A stretch of 64,000 nt of DNA from Hephaestia mangrovi (lineage in GTDB: Bacteria > Pseudomonadota > Alphaproteobacteria > Sphingomonadales > Sphingomonadaceae). Location of the stretch: positions 1-64,000 of the forward strand of contig NZ_JAINVU010000002.1 of the NCBI RefSeq assembly GCF_019880555.1, written 5' to 3'. Below the pieces are notes generated by a model. The model did not search any database, was not told the DNA's origin, and worked only from the letters and a program-made list of their open reading frames with translations. Of the stretch, positions 37,568 through 56,841 are shown in pieces (positions within the stretch are counted from its first letter, which is position 1; each line of letters opens with the position of its first letter). A program made the translations under genes and the position numbers.

Positions 37568-40030
37568 ATGGCAGTACGACTCTTTCGCACGAGCTTGTTG
37601 GGTGCGACCACGCTGATCGGCGTCGCGGGAACGCCCGCACTGGCGCAGGACGCGCCGGATACGGCGTCGACCACGACGACCGACGCAAACGCCTCCACCG
37701 GCGGAGCCACGCAGGAGATCGTGGTGACCGGCAGTCGCCGGCGGACCACGCTGCAGGACGCGCCGATCAACATCAGCGCGGCTTCGCAGGAGATGATTCA
37801 GGACCAGCGGCTGGATGACATCCGGTCTCTTGCCGCGTTCACGCCCGGCGTCACGGTGGCGGATACCGGGCCGAAATCGACCGGCAACATCATCCTGCGC
37901 GGCATTTCCTCGGGCGACACCAGCGTTTCCGGCGCGAACAGCAACGACGCGCTCGGGGTCTATCTCGGCGAGGTGCCGCTCTATCTCGACTTCAAGCTGA
38001 TCGATATCGATCGCGTGGAAGTGCTGCAGGGGCCGCAGGGCACGCTATACGGCCTCGGCACGCTGGCGGGCGCGGTGCGCTACATCCCCAACCGGCCGAA
38101 CGCCGACCGTCTGTCGATCGATCTTCACGGCCGCGGCTTCGCCGAATCGCATTCCGACGATTTCGGCGTGAATGGCGACATCGCCGTCAATCTGCCGATC
38201 GTGACCGATCATATCGCCTTGCGATCCGCGACTGGCTATTATGACAATCCCGGCTTCATCGATTATACGCACCTGCTGCAGAATCCGGGTGTTTCCGATC
38301 CCCAGCCGGTTCGCGCCACGGCCGGTTCGACGGGCTCGTTCGGCGATACCACCGATTATGGGCAGAATTTCAAGCGTCGCAAAGACGTCAATTTCGAGCA
38401 CACGTTCACCACGCGCAACCAGTTGCTGCTCGAGTACAATCCCGACTTCAAGGCGTACCTTACCTACGCCCACCAGACGACCAAGACCGACGGACGCCAG
38501 GCAAATGGCGCCGGCGTGCTCGGCACCGGCAATTATGAGGGGCCGTGGCGCTATCTCGAGCCGAGCAAACGTAAATCGGATCTTTTCTCGGCCGAGGTCT
38601 ATCTCAATTTCTTCAATTTCGCCCAGCTCGTCAGCACCACCGCCTATACGAAGCAGACGAACCACAGCACCGATGACAATACCGATCTGCTGCTCGACCT
38701 CGACTATGGCTATGAGGCGTTCCCCGAATTCTCCTCTTATGCCCACAATGAATCGACCACCCGCCAGTTCGACCAGGAGGTGCGGCTGGTTTCGACTCAC
38801 GGCGGGCCGTTCAACTGGGTGATCGGCGGGTTCTACAATCGCCAGAAATATAAGTCCCACCGCCATGAATATACGCCGGGCTTTGCTCAATGGGACGGCT
38901 ATTGGGGCGTCGATCGACCCGACAACCTCGAATATGTTTCGCAGGTCAACAACGTCAACAAGGAGAAGGCGGTCTATGGCGAAGGCACGCTGCACATAAC
39001 CCACAAGTGGCAGGTGACCGGCGGCATCCGCTATTTCAAATACGACGTGATGTCGTCCGGCGGATCGGCTCTGCCGCTGCTGGGCATCGGCGTTGACGAT
39101 TATCCGGCGGACACGGTTCTCCCGACCCGGATAAAGACCGGAACCGCATCAAAGGACGGTGTCGTCTGGAAGGCGAATACCTCTTACAAGTTCAGCAACA
39201 ATCTGCTCGCTTACTTCACCTATTCGACCGGGTATCGCGTGGGCGGCGCCAACCATGTGGTGGCGTGCACGCCCGAAGATTTGCAAAGAGCGGCGGAAGG
39301 CAAGCAGGTGCTTTGCGCGTTGCCGAACGAGCTGTTCTATGGCCCGGACAAGACGCGCAACAAGGAAATCGGCGTGCGCGGCAGCCTGTTCGACAGGCGC
39401 CTGCAATTCACGATCGACGCCTATCACATCGATTGGACCGGCGTGCAGGTGCCCAGCCAGACGGTGAACGGCGCGATCGGCATTACCGTGAACGGTGCCG
39501 ACGCGGTTTCCAAGGGCTTCGATGTTCAGGGCACGCTGCGGGTCACGCCGAATCTGACGATGATCGGCACCTATTCCTATGTCGACGCGCATCTGACCAC
39601 GGGGGTCGCCGGCCTGGTGGTGAGCCAGGGCGTGCGATACGATGCCGAGGCGGGCGACCGCTTGCCGGGATCGGCCAAGAATTCGGCGACCGGCCGGATC
39701 ATCTACACCTATCCGCTGGATAATGGCGCCAAGATCCAGGCGACCTGGGCCTCGGTATATCACGGCGACATCTATTCGCGGGTCGGCCTGCGCGGCAATG
39801 GCGAGGTGATCCCGCACTACATCACTCACAGCGCCTCGGTGAATTATATCACCGATCGCTTCGAGATCGGGCTGTTCGCCGACAACCTGACCGACAAATA
39901 TGCGGTAACCTCGGTGAGCAACGACCTGTCGTCGTACAATCTGGTCCGCACCGACGTGGTCGAGCGCTATTATGCGCGCGGTGTGCTGACGCCGCGTCGC
40001 GTGGGCATCGATTTCCGTATTCACTATTGA
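37568..40030 (+). CDS. TonB-dependent receptor (iron-complex/general type)
   Basis: This 820-residue outer-membrane receptor has a signal peptide ending at TPALAQ, TonB box EIVVTGSRRRTTLQDAPINISA, and plug with LDDIRSLAAFTPGVTVADTG, NIILRGISSG and the IDRVEVLQGPQGTLYG motif of the siderophore-type class. The barrel ends in RIHY. Unlike the two receptors at 7739 and 31109 it lacks the sugar-type plug. Many sphingomonad receptors of this class carry small aromatic or unknown ligands, so iron is not assured. Its leader is structured (37497-37563). Confidence 0.88.
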   Translation: MAVRLFRTSLLGATTLIGVAGTPALAQDAPDTASTTTTDANASTGGATQEIVVTGSRRRTTLQDAPINISAASQEMIQDQRLDDIRSLAAFTPGVTVADTGPKSTGNIILRGISSGDTSVSGANSNDALGVYLGEVPLYLDFKLIDIDRVEVLQGPQGTLYGLGTLAGAVRYIPNRPNADRLSIDLHGRGFAESHSDDFGVNGDIAVNLPIVTDHIALRSATGYYDNPGFIDYTHLLQNPGVSDPQPVRATAGSTGSFGDTTDYGQNFKRRKDVNFEHTFTTRNQLLLEYNPDFKAYLTYAHQTTKTDGRQANGAGVLGTGNYEGPWRYLEPSKRKSDLFSAEVYLNFFNFAQLVSTTAYTKQTNHSTDDNTDLLLDLDYGYEAFPEFSSYAHNESTTRQFDQEVRLVSTHGGPFNWVIGGFYNRQKYKSHRHEYTPGFAQWDGYWGVDRPDNLEYVSQVNNVNKEKAVYGEGTLHITHKWQVTGGIRYFKYDVMSSGGSALPLLGIGVDDYPADTVLPTRIKTGTASKDGVVWKANTSYKFSNNLLAYFTYSTGYRVGGANHVVACTPEDLQRAAEGKQVLCALPNELFYGPDKTRNKEIGVRGSLFDRRLQFTIDAYHIDWTGVQVPSQTVNGAIGITVNGADAVSKGFDVQGTLRVTPNLTMIGTYSYVDAHLTTGVAGLVVSQGVRYDAEAGDRLPGSAKNSATGRIIYTYPLDNGAKIQATWASVYHGDIYSRVGLRGNGEVIPHYITHSASVNYITDRFEIGLFADNLTDKYAVTSVSNDLSSYNLVRTDVVERYYARGVLTPRRVGIDFRIHY

Positions 40031-45430: not shown

Positions 45431-46324
45431 TCAACGGCGCGGCCTCGGCGCCAGCGGATATAGGATGAAATCGGCATGGCGATCGATGACGGGCGGTGAT
45501 GGCTCGCCGGCCGCTGCCCGTTGCAATTCGTCGATCGCCGCGGGCGGCAGCGCGAGGGGATGTTCGTGCGGGTGCGCGGCGGCCTTCATCGGGAAATCCT
45601 GGCCCGGCGTCGTCGTCATCTCGATATGCGCGCCGAGCACCGCGCGGATGCGGTGCGTGGCGGCAAAGGCCGCGAGGCGATCGGCACTGGCACGGAACGT
45701 ATCGAGTTGATCGGCCGGAAAGTAGAGGCGCCCTGGATACAGCATGTCGCCGGAAAACAGCAGCCGCGTGCGCGAATCATAGATCATGATGTGCGACGGT
45801 TCATGGCCTGGGGTCGGGATGATGTCGATCGTGCGGCCGCCGAGATCGTAATGGCCGATCTCGCGCGGCCAATCGGTGATATGGAAGAACGCGGCAACAT
45901 CGGCGGGCGCGAGGCCGATTACCTCGGTATCCGGCCGATCACGGAATTCGTCGTCGCCGGCGTGGTGATCGCCATGGGCATGGGTGTGTGCGACGATCAG
46001 ATGCAAGGGCCGGCCGTGATGGCGCACGCGCCAGTCGGCGATCATCCGGTCGATCGTGGGTCGTATCTTGAGCCCGCCCGCGCCGGTATCGAGCAGCAGC
46101 ACCTGCCGGTCGCCGAAGAGCAGATAGAGAAACGGCGCCTCGAAATTGGTTTCGACCGACTGTCGGACGACGATCGTGTCGGGGCCGATTCGCTGCACCT
46201 GGGTTGCCGGCTCATCCGGCTTCGTGCCGTTGATCCATGGCGCGAAACGCGGGCCGATATGCGATGGCGACGCAGCGCCGCCGAGCAGCAGGGCGGCAGC
46301 GAGCAGCGTGCCTGAATGACGCAT
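45431..46324 (-). CDS. Metallo-beta-lactamase-fold hydrolase, exported
   Basis: This 297-residue MBL-fold hydrolase has the metal motif HTHAHGDHHAGD, a later TPGHEPSHIMIYD histidine, the SGDMLYPG aspartate and GAHIEM. A hydrophobic leader (LLAAALLLGGAASPS) indicates export. This arrangement suits glyoxalase-II-like or lactonase-like hydrolases more than true beta-lactamases. The ATG at 46324 is tentative because its ribosome site is poor; upstream in-frame ATGs near 46368 would lengthen the leader. It is divergent from the guanidine operon and shares its promoter region, including the dyad at 46386, so it may be coregulated. Confidence 0.8.
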   Translation of the reverse strand: MRHSGTLLAAALLLGGAASPSHIGPRFAPWINGTKPDEPATQVQRIGPDTIVVRQSVETNFEAPFLYLLFGDRQVLLLDTGAGGLKIRPTIDRMIADWRVRHHGRPLHLIVAHTHAHGDHHAGDDEFRDRPDTEVIGLAPADVAAFFHITDWPREIGHYDLGGRTIDIIPTPGHEPSHIMIYDSRTRLLFSGDMLYPGRLYFPADQLDTFRASADRLAAFAATHRIRAVLGAHIEMTTTPGQDFPMKAAAHPHEHPLALPPAAIDELQRAAAGEPSPPVIDRHADFILYPLAPRPRR

Positions 46325-46385: not shown

Positions 46386-46413
46386 GTATTACTCACTTGC
46401 GCAAACGTAATAT
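46386..46413. promoter_or_regulatory. 28-bp dyad, candidate operator of the NikR-like regulator (site 1)
   Basis: GTATTA-N16-TAATAT, more fully GTATTAC-N14-GTAATA. It lies 44 bases before the transporter gene that leads the guanidine operon. The 6-16-6 geometry equals that of E. coli NikR operators (GTATGA-N16-TCATAC). An identical layout recurs at 49166-49193. Confidence 0.7.
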
Positions 46414-46457: not shown

Positions 46458-47543
46458 ATGGGTAGCTGGGTGTCGAAAGCGCGTTTCGCGATCGCGGCCG
46501 CCGCGATGTTGATCGTGGCTTCATGCAGCAGCGGGTCTCAGCAAGCGGCCGCCAAGCGCACGAACTTCAACATCGGCTGGTCGATCTATGCCGGATGGAT
46601 GCCCTGGCCCTATGCCCAGAAGGCTGGGATCGTGAAGAAGTGGGCCGACAAATACCACCTCAAGATCAACTTCGTGCAGGTCAACGACTATGTCGAATCG
46701 GTGAACCAATACACCGCCGGCAAGCTCGACGGCGTCACCGTCACCAACATGGACGCGCTGACCATCCCCGCCGCCGGCGGCAAGGACACCAGCGCGATCA
46801 TCCTGGGCGATTATTCGAACGGCAATGACGGCATCGTGCTGAAGGACGCGAACGGCCTTGCCGACATCAAGGGCCGCACGGTCTACATGGTCGAGCTTTC
46901 GGTGTCGCATTATCTGCTGGCGCGCGCGCTCTCGACGGTCGGGCTGCAGCTTTCGGACGTCAAGACGATGAATACCTCCGACGCCGATATCGTCAGCGCG
47001 TTCTCGAACCCGGCCGCGACGGCCGCGGTCACGTGGAACCCGCAGCTTACCGAGCTCACCAAGATGCCAGGCGCCAAGCTGGTGTTCGATTCGCACCAGA
47101 TCCCCGGCGAGATTCTCGACTTGCTGTGCGTCGACACCGCTACGCTCAAGGCCAACCCCGATCTCGGCAAGGCGCTCGCCGGCATCTGGTACGATACGAT
47201 CACGCTGATGCAGCGGCAGGACGCCGAGGGCGCGGCGGCCCGCGCGGCGATGGCCAAGATGGCGGGCACGACGCCCGAGGCGTTCGATGCGCAGTTGCGC
47301 ACCACCTATCTCTACACCAAGCCGCAAGAAGCGGTCGCCGCGATGAAGGCGCCGGCGCTGGTCGATACGATGACCAAGGTGCGCGACTTCAGCTATTCGA
47401 AGGGCCTGTTCGGGCCGGGCGCGGCCTCCGCCGATGCGATCGGCATCGCCTTCCCTGGCGGCAAGACGCTCGGCAGCAGCGCCAATGTGAAGCTGCGGTT
47501 CGATCCGACCTTCATGGAGCAAGCGGCGGTGGGCAAGCTCTGA
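46458..47543 (+). CDS. ABC transporter substrate-binding lipoprotein, urea-carboxylase-region type
   Basis: This 361-residue protein has a lipoprotein signal (AMLIVASCSSG, lipobox VASC). It is followed by an NMT1/SsuA-like periplasmic binding domain: NFNIGWSIYAGWMPWPYAQKAGIVKKW, DGVTVTNMDALTIPAAGGKDTSAIILGDYS, and HQIPGEILDLLCVDTATLKANPDLGKAL. This is the binding-protein group consistently found next to urea/guanidine carboxylase genes, so it should capture guanidine (or urea). The ATG at 46458 follows AAGGGGGTG. It heads a run with permease and ATPase and is preceded by the first regulator dyad. Confidence 0.85.
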   Translation: MGSWVSKARFAIAAAAMLIVASCSSGSQQAAAKRTNFNIGWSIYAGWMPWPYAQKAGIVKKWADKYHLKINFVQVNDYVESVNQYTAGKLDGVTVTNMDALTIPAAGGKDTSAIILGDYSNGNDGIVLKDANGLADIKGRTVYMVELSVSHYLLARALSTVGLQLSDVKTMNTSDADIVSAFSNPAATAAVTWNPQLTELTKMPGAKLVFDSHQIPGEILDLLCVDTATLKANPDLGKALAGIWYDTITLMQRQDAEGAAARAAMAKMAGTTPEAFDAQLRTTYLYTKPQEAVAAMKAPALVDTMTKVRDFSYSKGLFGPGAASADAIGIAFPGGKTLGSSANVKLRFDPTFMEQAAVGKL

Positions 47544-47598
47544 GCGTGCGCATCAGCGAACCTTTCGTCCGTAACGTCATGACGGCGAGGTCTTGCCT

Positions 47599-48414
47599 AT
47601 GCGTTGGGTGAATATCAGGCCCGGCCGCCGCCAATCGACGGTGCTCGGTGCCGTGCCGCTGCTGCTGATCGTTCTCGTCTATGTGATCGCGTCGGCCAGC
47701 CGGCACGCGGCCAATCCGTCGGACAAGGTGTTGCCGACCCCCGGCGCCATGGCGACGGCGATGCACGGCCTGTTGACCAGCGCCGATCCGCTGAGCGGCA
47801 AGCTGATTTTCTGGGCGGATACGATGGCGAGCCTCGAACGGCTGGGGCTGGCGCTCGGCATTTGCACGCTGTCGGCGTTGCTGGTCGGAATGGTGCTCGG
47901 GGTGCTGCCGGCGGCGCGCGCGACCTTGGGCGGACTGGTCACGACGATCGCGGTGATCCCGCCGATTGCGCTGCTGCCGATCCTGTTCATCGCCTTCGGC
48001 CTGGGCGAAACCGCCAAGGTGGCGCTGATCGTGATCGGCATCACGCCATTCATGATCCGCGATCTCGCCGATCATGTCGCGACGATCCCGCGCGAGCAGC
48101 TCATCAAGGCGCAGACATTGGGCGCGAGTAGCTGGCAGCTCGCGCTGCGTGTCGCGCTGCCACAGGCGCTGCCGCGGCTGATTGCCGGGTTGCGCCTCTC
48201 GCTCGGCCCGGCCTGGGTGTATCTCATCTCGGCCGAGGCGATCGCCTCCGATGTCGGGCTCGGCTACCGCATCTTCCTGGTGCGGCGCTATCTCTCGATG
48301 GACATCATCATTCCCTATGTCGCGTGGATTTCGTTGCTCGCGATCGCAATGGATTTCGCGCTGATGCAATTGAGCCGGCGGGCCTTCGCCTGGGCGCATG
48401 CGGGGGCGCGATGA
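47599..48414 (+). CDS. ABC transporter permease, guanidine/urea uptake
   Basis: This 271-residue inner-membrane permease of the SsuC/TauC (BPD_transp_1) type has about six hydrophobic segments and the cytoplasmic loop EQLIKAQTLGASSWQLALRVALPQALPRLIAGLRLSLGPAW containing the EAA-type ATPase-docking motif. The ATG at 47599 is chosen over the TTG at 47593. It overlaps the ATPase gene as ATGA and together with its neighbours forms a complete importer. Confidence 0.85.
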   Translation: MRWVNIRPGRRQSTVLGAVPLLLIVLVYVIASASRHAANPSDKVLPTPGAMATAMHGLLTSADPLSGKLIFWADTMASLERLGLALGICTLSALLVGMVLGVLPAARATLGGLVTTIAVIPPIALLPILFIAFGLGETAKVALIVIGITPFMIRDLADHVATIPREQLIKAQTLGASSWQLALRVALPQALPRLIAGLRLSLGPAWVYLISAEAIASDVGLGYRIFLVRRYLSMDIIIPYVAWISLLAIAMDFALMQLSRRAFAWAHAGAR

Positions 48415-49160
48415 GCGAACCGCTGCTCTCGTTCGAGAATGTCTGGCTCGAATATGGCGACAAGGTCGTCCTCGAGCATGTCGACCTGGCGATCGCGGCG
48501 GGGAGCTTCGTCTCGATCGTCGGCCCCTCGGGCGCGGGCAAGAGCAGTTTCCTGCGCCTGGTGCTGGGCCAGGAAGCGCCGACCCGCGGCCGCATTCTGC
48601 TCGACGGCGCGGCGCTGGCGGCCGAATGCGGCCCCGATCGCGGAATCGTCTTCCAACGCTATTCGGTTTTCCCGCACCTGAGCGCGCTTGGCAACGTGAT
48701 GCTAAATCGCGAATTCGCCGCGGCACCGTTCACCGCGCGGCTGTTCGGCCGGGCGCGGCGCGAGGCGGAGGCAGAGGCGGAGGCGATGCTGACCGAAGTC
48801 GGCCTCGGCGATGCGCTGCACCTTTATCCGGCGCAGCTTTCGGGCGGGATGCAGCAACGCCTTGCGATCGCGCAGGCGCTGATGGCGCGACCGCGCGTGC
48901 TGTTGCTCGACGAGCCGTTCGGCGCGCTCGATCCCGGTATCCGGCAAGACATGCACCGGCTCATCCTGAGCTTGTGGAGCGAGCACGAACTGACCGTGCT
49001 GATGGTGACGCACGACATCGGTGAGGCGTTCAAGCTGGGCACGCGCATCCTCTCATTCGACAAGCGCCGCATCGATCCGCACGCGCCGCACCGTTTCGGC
49101 GCGACCGCCGTCTACGACCTCGCACTTCGGGCCAAACCGCAGGAAAAAATTGCCGAATAA
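48411..49160 (+). CDS. ABC transporter ATP-binding protein, guanidine/urea uptake
   Basis: This 249-residue nucleotide-binding subunit has Walker A GPSGAGKS (38-45), the Q-loop in VFQRYSVFP, signature LSGGMQQR, Walker B VLLLDEPFGALD and the H-loop VTHDIGEAF. It resembles the SsuB/TauB group. It ends six bases before the second regulator dyad, so the operon is split at this point by an internal promoter for the regulator and the enzyme genes. Confidence 0.88.
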   Translation: MSEPLLSFENVWLEYGDKVVLEHVDLAIAAGSFVSIVGPSGAGKSSFLRLVLGQEAPTRGRILLDGAALAAECGPDRGIVFQRYSVFPHLSALGNVMLNREFAAAPFTARLFGRARREAEAEAEAMLTEVGLGDALHLYPAQLSGGMQQRLAIAQALMARPRVLLLDEPFGALDPGIRQDMHRLILSLWSEHELTVLMVTHDIGEAFKLGTRILSFDKRRIDPHAPHRFGATAVYDLALRAKPQEKIAE

Positions 49161-49165
49161 AGCTA

Positions 49166-49193
49166 GTATTACGATTGACAGAATCGGTAATAA
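49166..49193. promoter_or_regulatory. 28-bp dyad, candidate operator of the NikR-like regulator (site 2)
   Basis: GTATTA-N16-TAATAA (GTATTAC-N14-GTAATA) ends 17 bases before the regulator's own start, implying autoregulation. The spacer contains an additional inner dyad CGATT-GACAG-AATCG. Confidence 0.7.
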
Positions 49194-49210: not shown

Positions 49211-49693
49211 ATGAAGGAAACACCGCCCGCCAGCCTGGCGCGGCTCAGCATGAGCCTGCCGGCCGAACTGTCCCGTCAGCTTGATGCCATGGTCGAGGAG
49301 CGCGGCCTGCCGTCGCGATCGCAATTGATTGCCGAGTTGATCCGCGATGAGCTCGCCGCACATGGCGCCGACGAGCATCCCGAAGACATGCTCGCGGGCA
49401 CGATCACGCTGGTCTATCGCGGCGACATGGGGCGGGTCCGCCACCAACTGGCGCAGACCCAGGCCGAATATCTGAAAGAAGTGATCTCCTCGCAGCACGT
49501 CTTCCTCGAGGATGACCAGTCGCTCGAGGTGCTGCTGGTGCAGGGGCCGCCGGCGCGCTTGCGCAGCCTGTGCGATGCGATGCGCAAGGTTCGCGGCGTG
49601 CAGCAGCTTCGCTTGTTCACCACCACCGCGCTGCTGCCGCCGCTCCATGAACAGGAGCTTGGCGCGGCCGCGTTACGGAGCGAAACGGCATGA
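49211..49693 (+). CDS. NikR-fold ribbon-helix-helix regulator lacking nickel ligands
   Basis: This 160-residue regulator is built like NikR. It has an N-terminal ribbon-helix-helix (ARLSMSLPAELSRQLDAMVEERGLPSRSQLIAELIRDEL, 10-48) and a C-terminal ACT-like ferredoxin-fold domain (GTITLVYRGDM... to LRLFTT, 63-138). Aligned with E. coli NikR, only one of four high-affinity nickel ligands remains: H96 for H87. H76 becomes A85, H89 becomes F98 and C95 becomes S104. It is therefore unlikely to sense nickel in the standard way. It lies between the transporter and enzyme genes of a guanidine operon with a NikR-style dyad before it. The ATG at 49211 (GAGAG eight bases before) is chosen; the TTG at 49175 lies inside the dyad. 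Confidence 0.85.
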   Translation: MKETPPASLARLSMSLPAELSRQLDAMVEERGLPSRSQLIAELIRDELAAHGADEHPEDMLAGTITLVYRGDMGRVRHQLAQTQAEYLKEVISSQHVFLEDDQSLEVLLVQGPPARLRSLCDAMRKVRGVQQLRLFTTTALLPPLHEQELGAAALRSETA

Positions 49694-50511
49694 GCGCGGC
49701 GCTGGCCAATCCCAACGCCGCGCGGGATCATGCGCGGGCGATGGCGGGAACCGTCGTCGAGGCGATGCCGGTGTTGCCGCCGCGTGCCGACGACCTGCCG
49801 CAAGCCGTCGCGCCGGACGACCTGGTGTGGGAAGAGACAATCGCCGCCGGGGGCTATGCGTCCCGCGCGATCGCCCGTGGCACGCGGGTGCGCCTGATCG
49901 ACCTGCAGGGCGACGCCTGCGCTTCGCTGTTGCTGTTCAATGCCAACATGCCGACCGAGCGCCTCAACGTCGCCGACACGCTGAAGGTGCAGTGGAACGC
50001 CTATCCGGGGCAGGGGAGCCTGTTGCTTTCCGACATGGGGCGGGTTCTCGCCAGCATCGAGCAGGACGAGGCGGGCACGCATGATGCCTTTTGCGGCGCC
50101 TCCACCGCGGCGTCCAACAGGAAACGCTACGGCGATGGCCGCAATTCGGGCGATTTCCCCAACGCGCGTGATCGCCTGCTGCTCGGCACCGCCAAGCACG
50201 GGCTCGGCCGCCGCGACGTTCATCCCTGCCTCAACCTGTTCAAGGGCGTGCGCATCGGCGCCGACGGCGCGATCGAGCCGCAGCTCGGCCCGTTCCCGCC
50301 CGGCCGCTCGCTGGTGTTGCGCGCGGAGATGGCGCTGATCGTGGTGATCGCCAATTGTCCGCATGTGCTTGACACCCGGTCGTGGAGCGTGACGCCGTTG
50401 CGAGCCACCGCATGGCGCGGGCCGATAACCGCCGAAACCGACCCGATCCGCAACGCGACGCCCGAGGGGCAGCGCGCCTTCCTCAACACCGAGGATCTCT
50501 ACCGCCGATGA
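49690..50511 (+). CDS. Carboxyguanidine deiminase subunit (urea-amidolyase-associated protein 1, DUF1989)
   Basis: This 273-residue DUF1989 protein has family marks RLIDLQGDACASLLLFNANMPTERLNVADT, the cysteine-bearing AFCGASTAASNRKRYGDG, HPCLNLFKGVRI and VVIANCPHVLD, which are expected metal ligands. The family, long labelled urea-amidolyase-associated, is now known as one half of the two-subunit carboxyguanidine deiminase CgdAB. That enzyme converts carboxyguanidine to allophanate and ammonia. It overlaps the regulator gene and its partner as ATGA, so the subunits are translationally coupled. The first 30 residues are variable-looking. Confidence 0.85.
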   Translation: MSAALANPNAARDHARAMAGTVVEAMPVLPPRADDLPQAVAPDDLVWEETIAAGGYASRAIARGTRVRLIDLQGDACASLLLFNANMPTERLNVADTLKVQWNAYPGQGSLLLSDMGRVLASIEQDEAGTHDAFCGASTAASNRKRYGDGRNSGDFPNARDRLLLGTAKHGLGRRDVHPCLNLFKGVRIGADGAIEPQLGPFPPGRSLVLRAEMALIVVIANCPHVLDTRSWSVTPLRATAWRGPITAETDPIRNATPEGQRAFLNTEDLYRR

Positions 50512-51146
50512 CAACCGAAGATTCCTATCTCGCCGGGCTTTCCGGTGCCGTTGTCCATGATGAAGTGGTGCCAGCACGCGCGCCATGGATGCACCGCGTG
50601 AATGCCGGCGAAACGCTGCGCATCGTCGATCTCGGCGGCAATCAGTCGGTCGATTTCCTGCTCTACGCCGCCGATGACGACGCCGAACGCTACAGCGCGC
50701 AGGACACGATTGCCGCGCAAGCCAACATCTTCCTGCGCACCGGCAGCGTCCTGCTCTCGAACGAGGGGCGCCCGATGATGACGATCACCGATACCGCGGT
50801 CGATTATCACGATACGATCGGCGGCGCCTGTTCGTGCGAATCGAACACGCTGCGCTACGGCCATCACACCAAGTCGCACCATGCCTGTGTCGATAATTTC
50901 CTCGAGGCCAATCTGCGCGCCGGGCGCGGCAAGCGGGACATCGTCTCGAACATCAATTTCTTCATGAACGTGCCGGTGGAAGCCGATGGCGCTCTTGGCA
51001 TCGTCGACGGCATTTCGGCGCCGGGCCTGACGGTCGACCTGCGCGCCGAGATGGACGTGACGGTCGTGGTGTCAAACTGCCCGCAGATGAACAACCCCTG
51101 CAATGGCTTCGATCCGACGCCGGTGCGGATGATCGTCGCGGCATGA
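50508..51146 (+). CDS. Carboxyguanidine deiminase subunit (urea-amidolyase-associated protein 2, DUF1989)
   Basis: This 212-residue DUF1989 protein is paralogous to the gene before it. Visible family marks are LRIVDLGGNQSVDFLLYAADD, GGACSCESNTLRYG, HHACVDNFLEA, SNINFFMNVPV and VVSNCPQMNNPCNGFDPTPVRMIV; the clustered cysteines and histidines should bind a metal. It is the second half of the CgdAB deiminase. Both ends overlap neighbours as ATGA, giving tight stoichiometry with the carboxylase. Confidence 0.87.
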   Translation: MTTEDSYLAGLSGAVVHDEVVPARAPWMHRVNAGETLRIVDLGGNQSVDFLLYAADDDAERYSAQDTIAAQANIFLRTGSVLLSNEGRPMMTITDTAVDYHDTIGGACSCESNTLRYGHHTKSHHACVDNFLEANLRAGRGKRDIVSNINFFMNVPVEADGALGIVDGISAPGLTVDLRAEMDVTVVVSNCPQMNNPCNGFDPTPVRMIVAA

Positions 51147-54100
51147 CATTCGGCACGGTCCTGGTCGCCAATCGGGGGGCGATCGCATGTCGGATCATCC
51201 GCACGCTGAAGCGGATGGGCATCCGCTCGGTCGCGGTGTTCTCCGACGCCGACGAGGCCTCGCGGCACGTCGCCGAAGCCGATGTGGCGGTGCGAATCGG
51301 GCCGGGGCCGGCGGCCGAGAGCTATCTCGACGTCCAGCGTATCCTCGCCGCCGCACGGGAAACCGGCGCGCAAGCGATCCACCCCGGCTACGGCTTCCTG
51401 TCGGAAAATGCCGAATTCGCCGAGGCGTGCGAAGCAGCTGGCATCGCCTTCATCGGGCCGACCCCGGCCAATATCCGCTCCTTCGGCCTGAAGCACAGCG
51501 CCCGCGCGCTCGCCGAGGCGCAAGGCGTGCCGCTGGCGCCCGGCACCGGCCTGCTCGCCGATCCCGAGGAGGCCATCGCTGCGGCGAAGCAGATCGGCTA
51601 TCCGGTGATGCTCAAGGCGACCGCGGGCGGCGGCGGCATCGGCATGCGCGTATGCAACGATGCCCGCGCGGTGCGCGAGGGCTATGCCGCGGTAGCGCGG
51701 CTGGGCGCCGGCAATTTCGGTGATGCGGGGCTGTTCCTTGAACGCTTCGTGCCGCGCGCGCGCCACATCGAGGTGCAGATTTTCGGCGACGGCGCCGGCA
51801 AGGTGGTGGCGCTCGGCGAGCGTGATTGCTCGCTCCAGCGCCGCAACCAGAAGGTGATCGAGGAGGCGCCGGCGCCCAACCTGCCCGATCGCATCCGCGC
51901 CGAGCTGACCGATGCCGCGATCCGGCTCGGCGTCGCTGCCGGTTATCGCTCGGCCGGCACGGTTGAATTCCTCTATGATGCCGAACGTGAGGACTGGTTC
52001 TTCTTGGAGGTCAACACGCGGCTGCAGGTCGAGCATGGCGTCACCGAAGAAGTGACCGGCGTCGACCTGGTCGAGTGGATGGTGCGCGGCGGGGCGGGGG
52101 ATTTTGCTTTCCTCGACGCGCCGGTGCCGCCGCCGAACGGCTGGTCGATCCAGGCGCGGCTTTATGCCGAAGACCCGATGCTCGATTTCCGCCCGGCATC
52201 GGGCATGCTGACCGACGTCGCCTTTCCCGCTGACGCGCGGGCCGAGACGTGGGTGGAAAGCGGCACGGCCGTCTCCCCCTTCTACGATCCGATGCTGGCG
52301 AAGCTGATCGTCCACGGATCGAGCCGCGAAACCGCGCTGGCGAAGATGCAGGCGGCGCTCGGGCAGACGCGCTTCGCCGGGATCGAGACCAACCTGCGCT
52401 GGCTGCGCGATGTCGCGCAGAGCGCCGATTTCCTGTCGGGCAAGGTATCGACGCGGCTGCTCGATTCGATCGCGCATCATCCGCGCAGCATCATCGTCCA
52501 GTCGGGCGGGGCGGCGACCAGCGTGCAGGATTATCCCGGCCGTATCGGCCTGTGGGACGTTGGCGTGCCGCCATCGGGTCCGATGGATGCGCGCGCCTTT
52601 CGCCTCGGCAACCAGTTGCTCGGCAATCCATCCGATGCCGCCGGGCTGGAAGTCACTGCGACCGGGCCCACCCTGGTGTTCAACCATGTGACCCGCATCT
52701 GCCTGACCGGTGCCGATTTCGGCGCGACGCTCGATGGACGCCCGGTGGAGCGCAACCAGCCGATCGCCGTTGCCGAAGGGCAGACGCTCAGCCTCGGCCG
52801 CGTCACCGGCGGCGGGATGCGCGGCTATATCCTGTTCGCCGGCGGGCTCGACGTGCCTAGCTATCTCGGCAGCGGCAGCACCTTCGATCTCGGTGAATTC
52901 GGCGGGCATGGCGGGCGGCGGCTGCGCGCGGGCGACACACTCCACCTCGCGCTTCATCCGCCGGCGGTGGTGCCGGGACGGCGCAGCGTCGACCAGCCGA
53001 GGCTCGGCCCGGACTGGACGGTGCGTGTGCTCTATGGCCCGCACGGCGCGCCCGATTTCTTCGCGCCGGAGGATATCGAGACGATCCTCTCCGCCGACTG
53101 GCGGGTGCATTACAACAGCAACCGCACCGGCGTCCGCCTGGTCGGCCCCAAGCCGCACTGGGCGCGCACCGACGGCGGCGAAGCGGGGCTCCACCCGTCG
53201 AACATTCACGACAACCCCTATGCGATCGGCGCGATCGATTTCACTGGCGACATGCCGATCATCCTCGGTCCCGACGGGCCGTCGCTGGGCGGCTTCGTCT
53301 GCCCGTTCGTGGTGATCGCGGCGGATTTGTGGAAGATCGGCCAGCTTGCCGCCGGCGACCGCATTCGCTTCGAACAGGTCGATCTTGCCGAGGCCGAGGC
53401 GGCGAGCATCGCCGAGAACGCATGGATCGAAGGTCGCGCGGTTGCCGCGGCACCGGCCAGGCGCGGGCCGTTCGGTGACGCCGACGCCATCCTGCAGGAA
53501 TTGCCCGAGCAGGGCCGGCGCCCGCGCGTGCTTTACCGCCGGCAGGGCGACCGCAACCTGCTGGTCGAATATGGCCCGATCACGCTCGACCTCGAACTGC
53601 GCCTGCGCGTCCATGGCGCGACGTCCGCGCTCGCCGAACTGAACCTGCCTGGCATCATCGACATCGTGCCCGGCATCCGCTCGTTTCAGGTGCATTTCGA
53701 TGGCGTGCGGCTGCGCGAGGCGGCGCTGCTCGATCGGTTGACGGCGATTGAGGAAGACCTGGGCGAGCTCGATGATTTCGTCATCCCGTCGCGAATCGTC
53801 CATCTGCCGCTGAGCTGGGACGATCCAGCCATCCACCAGACGGTTGATCGTTACATGGCGGTGGTGCGCGACGATGCGCCTTGGTGCCCGGACAATATCG
53901 AGTTCATCCGGCGGGTGAACGGGCTGGACAGCGCGGACGACGTCCGCCGCACCGTGTTCGACGCGAGCTATTTCGTCTACGGGCTTGGCGACGTCTATCT
54001 CGGCGCGCCGGTCGCCACGCCGATCGATCCGCGCCATCGGCTCGTCACGACCAAATACAACCCGGCGCGCACCTGGACGCCGCCCAACGTCGTCGGGATC

Positions 54101-54748
54101 GGCGGCGCCTATATGTGCATCTACGGCATGGAAGGGCCGGGCGGATACCAGTTGTTCGGCCGTACCATCCAGGTGTGGAACACCTATCGGCAGACCGAGG
54201 CCTTCGCCGACGGCAAGCCCTGGCTGCTGCGCTTCTTCGACCAGGTTCGCTTCTTCCCGGTCAGTCACGGCGAGTTGAACGAGTGGCGCCGCGACTTCCC
54301 GCTCGGCCGGCGGACGATCGAAATCGAGGAAACCGAGTTCAGGCTTGCCGATTACCGGGCGTTCCTGGAAGAAAACGCCGCGTCGATCGCCGCGTTCGAG
54401 GCGCGCCGCAACGCTGCCTTCGCTGCCGAGCGCGAGGAATGGGCGCGCCGCGGCGAATTCGATCGCGTCGCCAGCCTGATCGAGGAAGCGGATGACGACG
54501 CCGCCGACGCGGTCGCGCTGCCCGATGGCGCGGAGCTGATCGAGGCGCCGTTCGGCGGCAGTATCTGGAAGCTGATGAAGGCGCCCGGCGATGAAGTCAC
54601 CGCCGGTGAGACGATCGCGGTGATCGAGGCGATGAAGACCGAGCTTCCGGTCACCAGCCCGGCCGCCGGCACGATCGCGGAGATTTTCGTCGCGGAACGG
54701 CAGACCGTGTCGCCCGGTGCGGCGATGCTGGCGCTGGTGCGCGCGTGA
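51143..54748 (+). CDS. Guanidine/urea carboxylase (biotin-dependent, single chain)
   Basis: This 1201-residue biotin enzyme is full-length. Domains in order: biotin carboxylase (about 1-445; ANRGAIACRIIRTLKRMG, ATP-grasp KATAGGGGIGMRVC, EVNTRLQVEHGVTEE), the carboxyltransferase portion with KipA- and KipI-like halves (about 450-1010; SVQDYPGRIGLWDVGVPPSGPMD, GAIDFTGDMPIILGPDGPS), and the C-terminal biotinyl domain with the target lysine K1165 in EAMKTE. It carboxylates guanidine (or urea) with bicarbonate and ATP. Next to the CgdAB pair, guanidine is the expected substrate, with carboxyguanidine as product. A long open frame on the opposite strand is a GC-codon shadow. Confidence 0.92.
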   Translation: MTFGTVLVANRGAIACRIIRTLKRMGIRSVAVFSDADEASRHVAEADVAVRIGPGPAAESYLDVQRILAAARETGAQAIHPGYGFLSENAEFAEACEAAGIAFIGPTPANIRSFGLKHSARALAEAQGVPLAPGTGLLADPEEAIAAAKQIGYPVMLKATAGGGGIGMRVCNDARAVREGYAAVARLGAGNFGDAGLFLERFVPRARHIEVQIFGDGAGKVVALGERDCSLQRRNQKVIEEAPAPNLPDRIRAELTDAAIRLGVAAGYRSAGTVEFLYDAEREDWFFLEVNTRLQVEHGVTEEVTGVDLVEWMVRGGAGDFAFLDAPVPPPNGWSIQARLYAEDPMLDFRPASGMLTDVAFPADARAETWVESGTAVSPFYDPMLAKLIVHGSSRETALAKMQAALGQTRFAGIETNLRWLRDVAQSADFLSGKVSTRLLDSIAHHPRSIIVQSGGAATSVQDYPGRIGLWDVGVPPSGPMDARAFRLGNQLLGNPSDAAGLEVTATGPTLVFNHVTRICLTGADFGATLDGRPVERNQPIAVAEGQTLSLGRVTGGGMRGYILFAGGLDVPSYLGSGSTFDLGEFGGHGGRRLRAGDTLHLALHPPAVVPGRRSVDQPRLGPDWTVRVLYGPHGAPDFFAPEDIETILSADWRVHYNSNRTGVRLVGPKPHWARTDGGEAGLHPSNIHDNPYAIGAIDFTGDMPIILGPDGPSLGGFVCPFVVIAADLWKIGQLAAGDRIRFEQVDLAEAEAASIAENAWIEGRAVAAAPARRGPFGDADAILQELPEQGRRPRVLYRRQGDRNLLVEYGPITLDLELRLRVHGATSALAELNLPGIIDIVPGIRSFQVHFDGVRLREAALLDRLTAIEEDLGELDDFVIPSRIVHLPLSWDDPAIHQTVDRYMAVVRDDAPWCPDNIEFIRRVNGLDSADDVRRTVFDASYFVYGLGDVYLGAPVATPIDPRHRLVTTKYNPARTWTPPNVVGIGGAYMCIYGMEGPGGYQLFGRTIQVWNTYRQTEAFADGKPWLLRFFDQVRFFPVSHGELNEWRRDFPLGRRTIEIEETEFRLADYRAFLEENAASIAAFEARRNAAFAAEREEWARRGEFDRVASLIEEADDDAADAVALPDGAELIEAPFGGSIWKLMKAPGDEVTAGETIAVIEAMKTELPVTSPAAGTIAEIFVAERQTVSPGAAMLALVRA

Positions 54749-56490
54749 TCGCGCTCGATCGCCTGTCGGCGGAAGCGATCGCTGGCGACGTGCTTGCCGG
54801 CCGCCGCAGCGCCGTTGCGGTGATCGAGGAAGTGCTCGATCGCCTCGCGGCCTATGATGCGCTCCAGCCCGCCGTGTGGATCTCTCGCTTCGATGCCGAT
54901 GCGTTGCGCGCCATGGCGGCGCGTGTCGACAAGCGCATCGCAGCGGGCGAGACGCTGCTGCTGGCCGGCGTGCCCTTCGCGGTGAAGGACAATATCGACG
55001 TCGCCGGCCTCGACACCACCGCCGGATGCCCCGCTTTCGCTTACGCGCCGCCCGCATCGGCGACGGTCGTCGAGCGGCTGGTCGCGGCCGGCGCGATCCC
55101 GGTCGGCAAGACCAATCTCGATCAGTTCGCCACCGGGCTCAACGGCACCCGCAGCCCCTATGGCATCCCGCGCAACGCCTATAATCGCGCCTGGATCAGC
55201 GGCGGATCGAGCTCGGGCTCGGCGGTCGCGGTCGCCGCCGGCCTCGTCGCTTTCGCCCTCGGCACCGATACGGCGGGATCGGGGCGCGTGCCCGCCGCCT
55301 TCAACCATCTTATCGGGCTCAAACCGTCGCGCGGCCGGTGGAGCTCGCACGGACTCGTCCCGGCGTGCCGGACGCTCGATTGCATCACCGTGTTCGCCGG
55401 CACCGCGAGCGACGCCGGGCTGGTCGATTCGGTCGTGGCGGGCTTCGACTGGCAAGACACGCTCTCGCGTGATCTGGCCGACATGCCGCGTGCCGCGCGG
55501 CGGATCGGCGTCCCGCGCGCCGACCAGCGCCAGTGGTTCGGCGATATCGAGTCCGGCGCCCTCTACGATCGCGCGCTTGCCCGGCTCGATGCCGAGCTGG
55601 TCGAGATCGACCTGGCCCCGCTCAGCGAAGCCGCGCGCCTGCTCTATGACGGCCCCTGGGTCGCCGAGCGCACCGCCGCTTTGCAAACCATCCTCGACGA
55701 TCACCCCGAGGCAGTTCACTCCACTGTGCGCGCCATCGTCGAGGCGGGGCGCGACTATAGCGCCGTGGATGCCTTCAATGGCCAGTATCGTCTTGCCGAG
55801 CTGGCCCGCGCCGCCGAGGCGATGTGGCGCGAGATCGACCTGCTGCTGCTGCCCACCGCGCCGACCAGCTATCGCGTTGCCGAGATGCTCGCCTCGCCGA
55901 TCGCGCTCAACGCCCATCTCGGCGCCTACACCAATTTCGTGAACCTGCTCGACATGGCGGCGATCGCGGTGCCCGCCGGGGCCTATGCCAGCGGCGTCGG
56001 CTTCGGCGTTACGCTGATCGGTCCCGCAGGCACCGATCGCGCGCTGCTCGACGCGGCAACAGCGCTGTTTCCCGTGCCGGCACCCCCGGCGCTCGACATG
56101 GAGGGACGAATGGAAACCGTGAAGCTGGCCGTGGTCGGCGCGCACCTCAAGGACATGCCGCTGCACTGGCAGCTCACCTCGCGCGACGCGGCCTTCGTCG
56201 GCGAGGCGATGACCGCGCCGACCTATCGCCTCTACGCGATGGAGAGCACGCCGCCCAAGCCGGCGCTGGTCCACGCCGACGATGGCGCATCGATCCCGAT
56301 CGAAATTTACGAGCTCGACATGGCGGCGTTCGGCAGCTTCGTCGCCGAAGTGCCGCCGCCACTCGCCATCGGCACGGTGACGCTGGCCGACGGCAGCATG
56401 GTCAAGGGCTTCGTTGCCGAGCCGCGCGCGACCGAGGGCGCCGAAGACATCACCGCGCTGGGTGGCTGGCGCGCCTATGTGGCCCGTTGA
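54745..56490 (+). CDS. atzF: Allophanate hydrolase
   Basis: This 581-residue amidase-signature enzyme hydrolyses allophanate to two ammonia and two CO2. The Ser-cisSer-Lys triad is K81 (FAVKDNIDVAG), S155 (GGSSSGS) and S179 (DTAGSGR). The C-terminal alpha/beta domain (about 450-581, LAVVGAHLKDMPLHWQL) is the second, decarboxylation-linked domain of AtzF-type enzymes. The GTG at 54745 overlaps the carboxylase stop as GTGA. It closes the pathway guanidine -> carboxyguanidine -> allophanate -> ammonia. Confidence 0.93.
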   Translation: MIALDRLSAEAIAGDVLAGRRSAVAVIEEVLDRLAAYDALQPAVWISRFDADALRAMAARVDKRIAAGETLLLAGVPFAVKDNIDVAGLDTTAGCPAFAYAPPASATVVERLVAAGAIPVGKTNLDQFATGLNGTRSPYGIPRNAYNRAWISGGSSSGSAVAVAAGLVAFALGTDTAGSGRVPAAFNHLIGLKPSRGRWSSHGLVPACRTLDCITVFAGTASDAGLVDSVVAGFDWQDTLSRDLADMPRAARRIGVPRADQRQWFGDIESGALYDRALARLDAELVEIDLAPLSEAARLLYDGPWVAERTAALQTILDDHPEAVHSTVRAIVEAGRDYSAVDAFNGQYRLAELARAAEAMWREIDLLLLPTAPTSYRVAEMLASPIALNAHLGAYTNFVNLLDMAAIAVPAGAYASGVGFGVTLIGPAGTDRALLDAATALFPVPAPPALDMEGRMETVKLAVVGAHLKDMPLHWQLTSRDAAFVGEAMTAPTYRLYAMESTPPKPALVHADDGASIPIEIYELDMAAFGSFVAEVPPPLAIGTVTLADGSMVKGFVAEPRATEGAEDITALGGWRAYVAR

Positions 56491-56517: not shown

Positions 56518-56841
56518 ATGAGAGTGGCGATCCTGCATGTGACGACGCGCGAAGGCGAGCAAAAGGACGTTTCGGGCGAAGAAGGCCTGTCGGTGATGGA
56601 AGTCCTACGCGACAACGGCGTCGACGATGCCTTTGCCTTGTGCGGCGGCTGCTGCTCCTGCGCGACCTGCCATATCTATGTGCAGGAAGATCGTCTCGCG
56701 GCCTTGCCGCCGATGAGTGAGGACGAGAATGACCTGCTCGACAGTTCCAGCCATCGGCAGGCGAATTCGCGGCTTTCCTGCCAGATTCCCTGGTCTGCCA
56801 GCTTCGACGGCTTGGCCGTGACCGTCGCCCCCGAAGACTGA
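56518..56841 (+). CDS. [2Fe-2S] ferredoxin, adrenodoxin type
   Basis: This 107-residue ferredoxin has cluster ligands in the C-x5-C-x2-C...C pattern: C42, C48, C51 and C88 (LSCQI). Two extra cysteines (C45, C46 in CGGCCSCATCH) sit inside the loop where most relatives have one. It would donate electrons to a cytochrome P450 or ring-hydroxylating oxygenase, none of which is nearby. It starts 28 bases after the allophanate hydrolase stop with AAAGGGGAAA before the ATG, so it may be read through from the guanidine operon without a functional link. Confidence 0.88.
   Translation: MRVAILHVTTREGEQKDVSGEEGLSVMEVLRDNGVDDAFALCGGCCSCATCHIYVQEDRLAALPPMSEDENDLLDSSSHRQANSRLSCQIPWSASFDGLAVTVAPED

Follow-up and report, generated by a model that had tools for sequence, protein, structure and literature searches.

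The window, a stretch of 64,000 nucleotides from Hephaestia mangrovi, contains a gene for a NikR-type protein, designated P0001, located among genes for guanidine import and breakdown. This location raises the question of which genes P0001 controls and to which signal it responds. The locus has the following features.

46386..46413, no strand assigned: operator-like site with the sequence GTATTAC-N14-GTAATAT; the start codon (ATG) of the substrate-binding protein gene follows after 44 nt
46458..47543, + strand: ABC substrate-binding protein (TIGR03427 ABC_peri_uca, 522.4 bits for a cut-off of 333.9), likely part of a guanidine importer
47593..48414, + strand: ABC permease (PF00528)
48411..49160, + strand: ABC ATPase (PF00005)
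49166..49193, no strand assigned: operator-like site with the sequence GTATTAC-N14-GTAATAA; the start codon (ATG) of the regulator gene follows after 17 nt
49211..49693, + strand: NikR-type regulator P0001, 160 aa, ribbon-helix-helix (RHH) DNA-binding domain and ACT-like NikR_C domain
49690..50511, + strand: UAAP1 (TIGR03425), likely carboxyguanidine deiminase subunit CgdA
50505..51146, + strand: UAAP2 (TIGR03424), likely carboxyguanidine deiminase subunit CgdB
51143..54748, + strand: protein of the urea carboxylase family (TIGR02712) with a guanidine carboxylase signature
54745..56490, + strand: allophanate hydrolase AtzF (TIGR02713)

The window contains every gene expected of a guanidine carboxylase operon, encoding a uca-type ABC importer, both deiminase subunits (CgdA and CgdB), the carboxylase, and allophanate hydrolase. 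Residue D699 of the carboxylase aligned with N1330 of the K. lactis enzyme, a position described in the excerpted text of PMC11410670 as Asp in guanidine carboxylase and Asn in urea carboxylase. D699 is the guanidine-type residue and disfavours assignment of the 51143..54748 product as a urea carboxylase. A 2Fe-2S ferredoxin gene (56518-56841) is located after the operon; a homologue was present 3' of the cluster in L047, L048, L050, and L052, and at a greater distance in L120.

Fold and nickel-ligand positions of the regulator

P0001 has the domain layout of NikR, and a ranking of its fold placed NikR first, with regulatory ACT domains of other proteins close behind. Residues A85, H96, F98, and S104 occupied the positions of the E. 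coli NikR nickel ligands H76, H87, H89, and C95, respectively. This confirmed the original prediction of a NikR fold with one of the four E. coli ligands, the retained residue being the equivalent of H87 (H96). P0001 scored below all five curated NCBIfam NikR cut-offs (score/cut-off of 91.6/105, 87.1/111, 61.3/83, 58.2/119, and 52/175.45); L183, the one Methylophilaceae relative scored in this way, exceeded three of the five. The fold of P0001 is that of NikR, yet membership of the nickel-responsive family cannot be claimed, since a defining feature, the complete set of high-affinity Ni(II) ligands, was checked and found to be absent from P0001 and from its clade as a whole. A function as nickel regulator was not supported in view of this loss, of the association of close operator matches with guanidine genes (see below), and of the host genome, in which searches for two nickel enzymes, urease alpha and [NiFe] hydrogenase, gave no match. 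Profile matches revealed no nickel families among the other proteins of the window cluster.

Distant relatives of P0001 were sought in the class, the phylum, the families of genomes G1087 and G283, and a plasmid collection; based on named relatives, we take the G1087 family to be Methylophilaceae. Unrooted trees were computed from representatives at 90 percent identity with exclusion of the ligand columns, and rows with at most 100 filled columns were removed before counting. The clade containing P0001 formed one side of a branch with a support of 87 in the tree of all 100 rows. When four long or odd rows, including L143, were omitted (the quick tree had retained them), a careful tree gave the clade branch a support of 98/94. 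Members were found in sphingomonads, Caulobacterales (Asticcacaulis), other Alphaproteobacteria, Methylophilaceae, Acinetobacter, and family f70, with identities of 29-44 percent for the last three groups. Guanidine genes were present in the locus of 37 of the 38 clade representatives versus none of the 35 other NikR-type representatives (loci of at least 8 kb), the latter comprising 22 proteins with the complete ligand set (HHHC) and 13 with otherwise altered sets. The 37 loci were divided into 35 with CgdA/CgdB/carboxylase genes and two with only the transporter, creatininase, or GS-III genes found alongside these in Methylophilaceae. The 38th representative, L143 (7840-8436 in G518), is a lone diverged AHFS paralogue; its locus has neither guanidine genes nor an operator scoring 11/14, an observation that counts against the main reading given below.

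Among the 38 representatives, His was present at E. coli position 76 in a single protein and at position 87 in all of them. Position 89 was occupied by F (20 proteins), H (11), V (3), Q (2), N (1), or P (1), and position 95 by S (23), T (13), I (1), or V (1), never by C. H89 was lost in the sphingomonad, Asticcacaulis, and Acinetobacter members. The HxH pair (H87 and H89) was mostly kept in the Methylophilaceae/f70 branch (11 representatives), in which metal sensing may be possible. The regulators of four sphingomonad loci were of the HHFS type, with H76 and H87 kept and H89 and C95 gone. HHHC was absent from all 38 representatives and from all regulator rows of the 103 guanidine loci; the HHHC comparison group is defined by its ligands, and its own ligand counts hold by construction. 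The distinct ligand-lacking clade fixed beside CgdAB genes that the original prediction had called for is therefore present, and extends to Beta- and Gammaproteobacteria, and no relative in the same neighbourhood had conserved all nickel ligands. Loss of the ligands, as opposed to their never having been present, appears to be the simpler reading since P. horikoshii NikR and the main other NikR group are both HHHC.

H96 (100 percent) was the only His or Cys column of the clade reaching at least 90 percent, with H51 at 87 percent. E90 was present in 36 of the 38 members and in none of the 46 HHHC representatives. The C-terminal proline P143, which is rare in canonical NikR, was found in all 38 members. 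At the column matched through the NRSE motif to E30, the Glu of the K+ site in E. coli NikR, 36 of the 38 members have Gln. The ACT-like domain, with invariant residues, was retained across three proteobacterial classes. Around the former nickel region, H96, E106, Y69, and Q84 were kept; we take these residues to line the former site, as they would in NikR structures, and the region is a plausible place for a planar cation.

Other NikR-type proteins were encountered in the course of this survey. Some Novosphingobium and Sphingobium clusters (L067, L068, L073, L141, and similar loci) contain a second NikR-type paralogue, in which the residue matching H89 is often V rather than F. Altered ligand sets (HARS, HHVS, HHIS, HNAS, HART, and HTVS) mark a second NikR type in sphingomonads (L132, L134-L138, and L142), near which guanidine genes were not seen. 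The NikR_C proteins of four loci from other genomes of the phylum (L140, L180, L181, and L182) also lack the ligand set and have RQPY, LSPA, NLCR, and LSPS in its place.

Operators and co-occurrence with guanidine genes

The two window sites, GTATTAC-N14-GTAATA(T/A), correspond to the consensus GTATTAC-N14-GTAATAC, and were the only sites with at most two mismatches in the home genome (3.79 Mb). A TTGACA hexamer (49175-49180) lies inside the spacer of the 49166..49193 site. Operators were scored as matches out of the 14 half-site bases. All 103 guanidine loci encoding the regulator (102 distinct loci, L076 and L141 being one place) had a site of at least 11/14, and 102 of them had a site of at least 12/14, versus one of the 39 loci of other NikRs at the latter threshold. 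Five guanidine loci lacking the regulator had no operator, even at 11/14 or more. The possibility that the operator is a chance palindrome was rejected by two controls: 214 sites were found at spacing 14, with no more than nine at each of the other spacings in the range 8 to 21, and the reversed pattern gave a single site. In 101 of the 103 loci, a match to the substrate-binding protein, regulator, CgdA, or permease gene followed downstream of a site at a distance of 400 bp or less. The exceptions were L232, in which the site is further upstream and a riboswitch lies between the site and the genes, and L225, which has no site of at least 12/14 and none near its genes, the contig piece ending inside the binding-protein gene.

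Two half-sites at the NikR spacing are thus seen in the DNA, and binding to them is predicted. The clade operator (GTATTA-N16-TAATAC) has the same geometry as the E. coli NikR operator given in the excerpted text of PMC7055735 (GTATGA-N16-TCATAC). At L177, the operator GTATGAC-N14-GTCATAC contains the E. coli half-sites themselves. On this evidence, the part of NikR that reads DNA appears to have been retained during decay of the metal site.

TonB-dependent receptor genes were found near some of the clusters. A site of at least 11/14 was present within 700 bp of the N-terminal side of the receptor match in 31 of the 62 loci with such a match (examples among the scan loci are L083 6883, L092 6884, and L111 6840). 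This suggests that outer-membrane uptake belongs to the same regulon, and the site of a divergent importer may be counted in some loci. The window TonB receptor gene (37568-40030) had no site at 11/14; its best score was 9/14, and no operator is claimed there.

CgdA, CgdB, and carboxylase genes were present in each of the best 80 of 199 genome-scan loci, which were picked by similarity to the window protein. Among 397 genomes of the same family as the window, taken from named relatives to be Sphingomonadaceae, 56 had CgdB over the cut-off, 57 had NikR_C, and 51 had both, for approximately 8 expected if the two were independent (these genomes share ancestry). The six genomes with NikR_C only encode other NikR types, beside which guanidine genes were not seen: the nickel ligands are altered in another way in G475, G508, G632, G666, and G678, and G514 has two copies, a canonical HHHC one and an HHVS one.

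The five clusters with CgdB only (L127-L131) had no NikR_C match, no operator, and no riboswitch at cut-off. In all five, a LysR gene was located 170-365 bp from the substrate-binding protein match. Two of these LysR proteins, used as queries against the 103 regulator-bearing guanidine loci, gave one weak match, 10 kb off, in a search that an unrelated LysR could escape. Clusters without the NikR-type gene thus seem to have a LysR gene in its stead, which is what a dedicated regulator would lead one to expect. LysR regulators are usually ligand-responsive, and the LysR gene of L127-L131 is a second candidate for a guanidine-responsive regulator. Taken as a whole, the original prediction is partly borne out. 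Operator conservation and LysR replacement in the five clusters give good support to its repurposed NikR-type regulator for guanidine use, and guanidine is the best guess for what is sensed. Its suggestion that a different metal might be sensed through other residues is disfavoured, H96 and H51 being the only His or Cys residues that stand out in a clade whose host here has no match to the two nickel enzymes.

Promoter elements and guanidine riboswitches

Of the 16 Methylophilaceae sites, 14 had beside them a sigma-54-like -24/-12 box matching at least 9 of 12 positions, versus 5 percent in shuffles. Among the 15 sites preceding the cluster, 13 have a box that starts 19-20 nt ahead of the operator (minus-strand offsets were obtained by hand arithmetic), so that the transcription start would fall within the operator. 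Two Acinetobacter records had a sigma-54-like box at all six sites, and one of the three operators per record is located upstream of the box. There was no excess of such boxes at the sphingomonad sites (10 of 188, or 5.3 percent, versus 4.8 percent in mononucleotide shuffles, five per site). No consensus sigma-70 promoter was found in the window between positions 46200 and 50000.

A search of the window with all Rfam families at gathering cut-offs gave no match, and therefore no guanidine riboswitch aptamer. At the same cut-offs, no guanidine riboswitch was detected in the sphingomonad clusters scanned (the window, L047, L058, L066, L085, and L127-L131). Of the 24 clade loci from outside the sphingomonads that were scanned, 13 had a guanidine riboswitch, which was Guanidine-I in L189, L190, and L232, and Guanidine-II in L139, L229, L230, L235-L240, and L253. 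The operator is upstream of the Guanidine-I aptamer, at a distance of 35 nt (L189), 34 nt (L190), and 16 nt (L232).

Candidate effector and relation to known systems

We propose, with a probability of about 55 percent, that P0001 is a dedicated repressor of the guanidine genes, which binds the GTATTAC-N14-GTAATAC operator and is released by guanidine or a close guanidino compound in its ACT-like domain. P0001 would sit on the operators at 46386 and 49166, repressing the genes for guanidine import and breakdown; occupancy of the ACT-like domain by the inducer, perhaps held between subunits where Ni(II) once bound, would cause the repressor to leave the DNA. In H. mangrovi, P0001 would be the only visible specific control of the operon, the window being devoid of a riboswitch. 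The link between regulator, operator, and pathway is strong, and guanidine is the most likely candidate effector. Guanidine is favoured since close operator matches occur in the home genome only at guanidine genes, sigma-54 would already supply nitrogen control in the lineages with the box, and the scanned sphingomonad clusters have no riboswitch for the job. Some observations fit less well. A riboswitch already senses guanidine in Acinetobacter and in many Methylophilaceae clusters, where the signal relayed by the protein may be another one. Nor does any residue of the pocket single out a site for guanidinium, as E90 is also Glu in the nickel-binding NikR of P. horikoshii. Finally, the Acinetobacter operator upstream of the sigma-54 box fits less simply with repression.

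Riboswitch coexistence, by which a second guanidine sensor may look redundant, and the rank of regulatory ACT domains right behind NikR would both suit a protein that acts at the same operators and senses in its ACT-like domain a later intermediate (carboxyguanidine or allophanate) or a nitrogen-status metabolite. We consider such a signal rather unlikely, as the sigma-54-like boxes of Methylophilaceae and Acinetobacter would already provide nitrogen control and the confinement of close operators to guanidine genes suits a pathway-specific inducer. Sensing of nickel or of another metal through altered ligands appears very unlikely. The family fold, the invariant H87, the HxH pair of the Methylophilaceae/f70 branch, and the NCBIfam scores of L183 are in its favour; they are opposed by the loss of C95 in 38/38 and of H76 in 37/38 representatives, by the loss of H89 in three groups, by the scarcity of conserved His or Cys columns apart from H96, and by the lack of nickel families in the window cluster and of the two nickel enzymes in the host. 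We also give little credence to P0001 being a ligand-free autorepressor or an architectural DNA-binding protein that sets only the basal level of the operon. Many RHH proteins do repress without a small ligand, and none is known here, but retention of the ACT-like domain in three classes with invariant residues, P143 included, and the presence of a LysR gene, of a usually ligand-responsive type, in all five clusters without the regulator argue against this option.

The proposed guanidine-responsive repression by P0001 can be compared with known systems. The clade shares the RHH and ACT-like fold with NikR from E. coli, H. pylori, and P. horikoshii, but is devoid of H76 (with one exception) and C95 and mostly of H89, and its neighbours are guanidine genes rather than nickel transport genes. 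The Guanidine-I and Guanidine-II riboswitches of guanidine carboxylase operons have target genes in common with the clade and coexist with it in some clusters; they are RNAs in the leader, whereas the clade regulator is a protein predicted to act at the promoter. NikR has been redesigned for uranyl by the substitutions H76D, C95D, and V72S, according to the excerpted text of PMC4101488. Positions 76 and 95, changed there in the laboratory, were lost naturally in most clade members. In Ectopseudomonas, a LysR regulator, whose role is predicted, is described beside urea/guanidine carboxylase genes with a guanidine-I riboswitch (PMC13296017, excerpted text). This LysR is adjacent to the pathway, as is the clade regulator, but belongs to an unrelated protein family, and can be likened to the LysR of L127-L131 by position only.

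In the excerpted passages of a 2025 review (PMC12186494), riboswitches are the only known guanidine receptors besides transporters and enzymes, and guanidine-binding transcription factors are mentioned as a possible future find. Titles and abstract starts among the open-access matches listed, a set outside which fall most subscription journals and bioRxiv, contained no NikR-type or other ribbon-helix-helix guanidine regulator. The clade is a widely distributed, concrete, and directly testable candidate for such a factor, with a defined operator. Tentatively, and at somewhat less than even odds, it could represent the first protein transcription factor sensing guanidine. The planar Ni(II) site between subunits would have been remade for planar guanidinium; in some bacteria the factor would form one layer of control beside sigma-54 and guanidine riboswitches, and in sphingomonads it would stand in for the riboswitch entirely. 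If true, this would reveal a route from metal sensor to organic-cation sensor with conservation of the DNA-binding geometry. The finding also bears on annotation, several Methylophilaceae clade members being named 'nickel-responsive transcriptional regulator NikR' at source.

Additional genes were observed in some of the clusters. Creatininase-family and type III glutamine synthetase genes are located between the importer and the regulator in L183, L225, L228-L232, L234, L236, L237, L239, and L240, and after the importer in L139; they are perhaps for other guanidino compounds. Genes for an SMR transporter and for a 2OG-Fe(II) oxygenase, the latter with an adjoining hypothetical gene, are present in the Acinetobacter plasmid cluster and recall, by resemblance only, the methylguanidine demethylation genes described in the excerpted text of PMC12508155.
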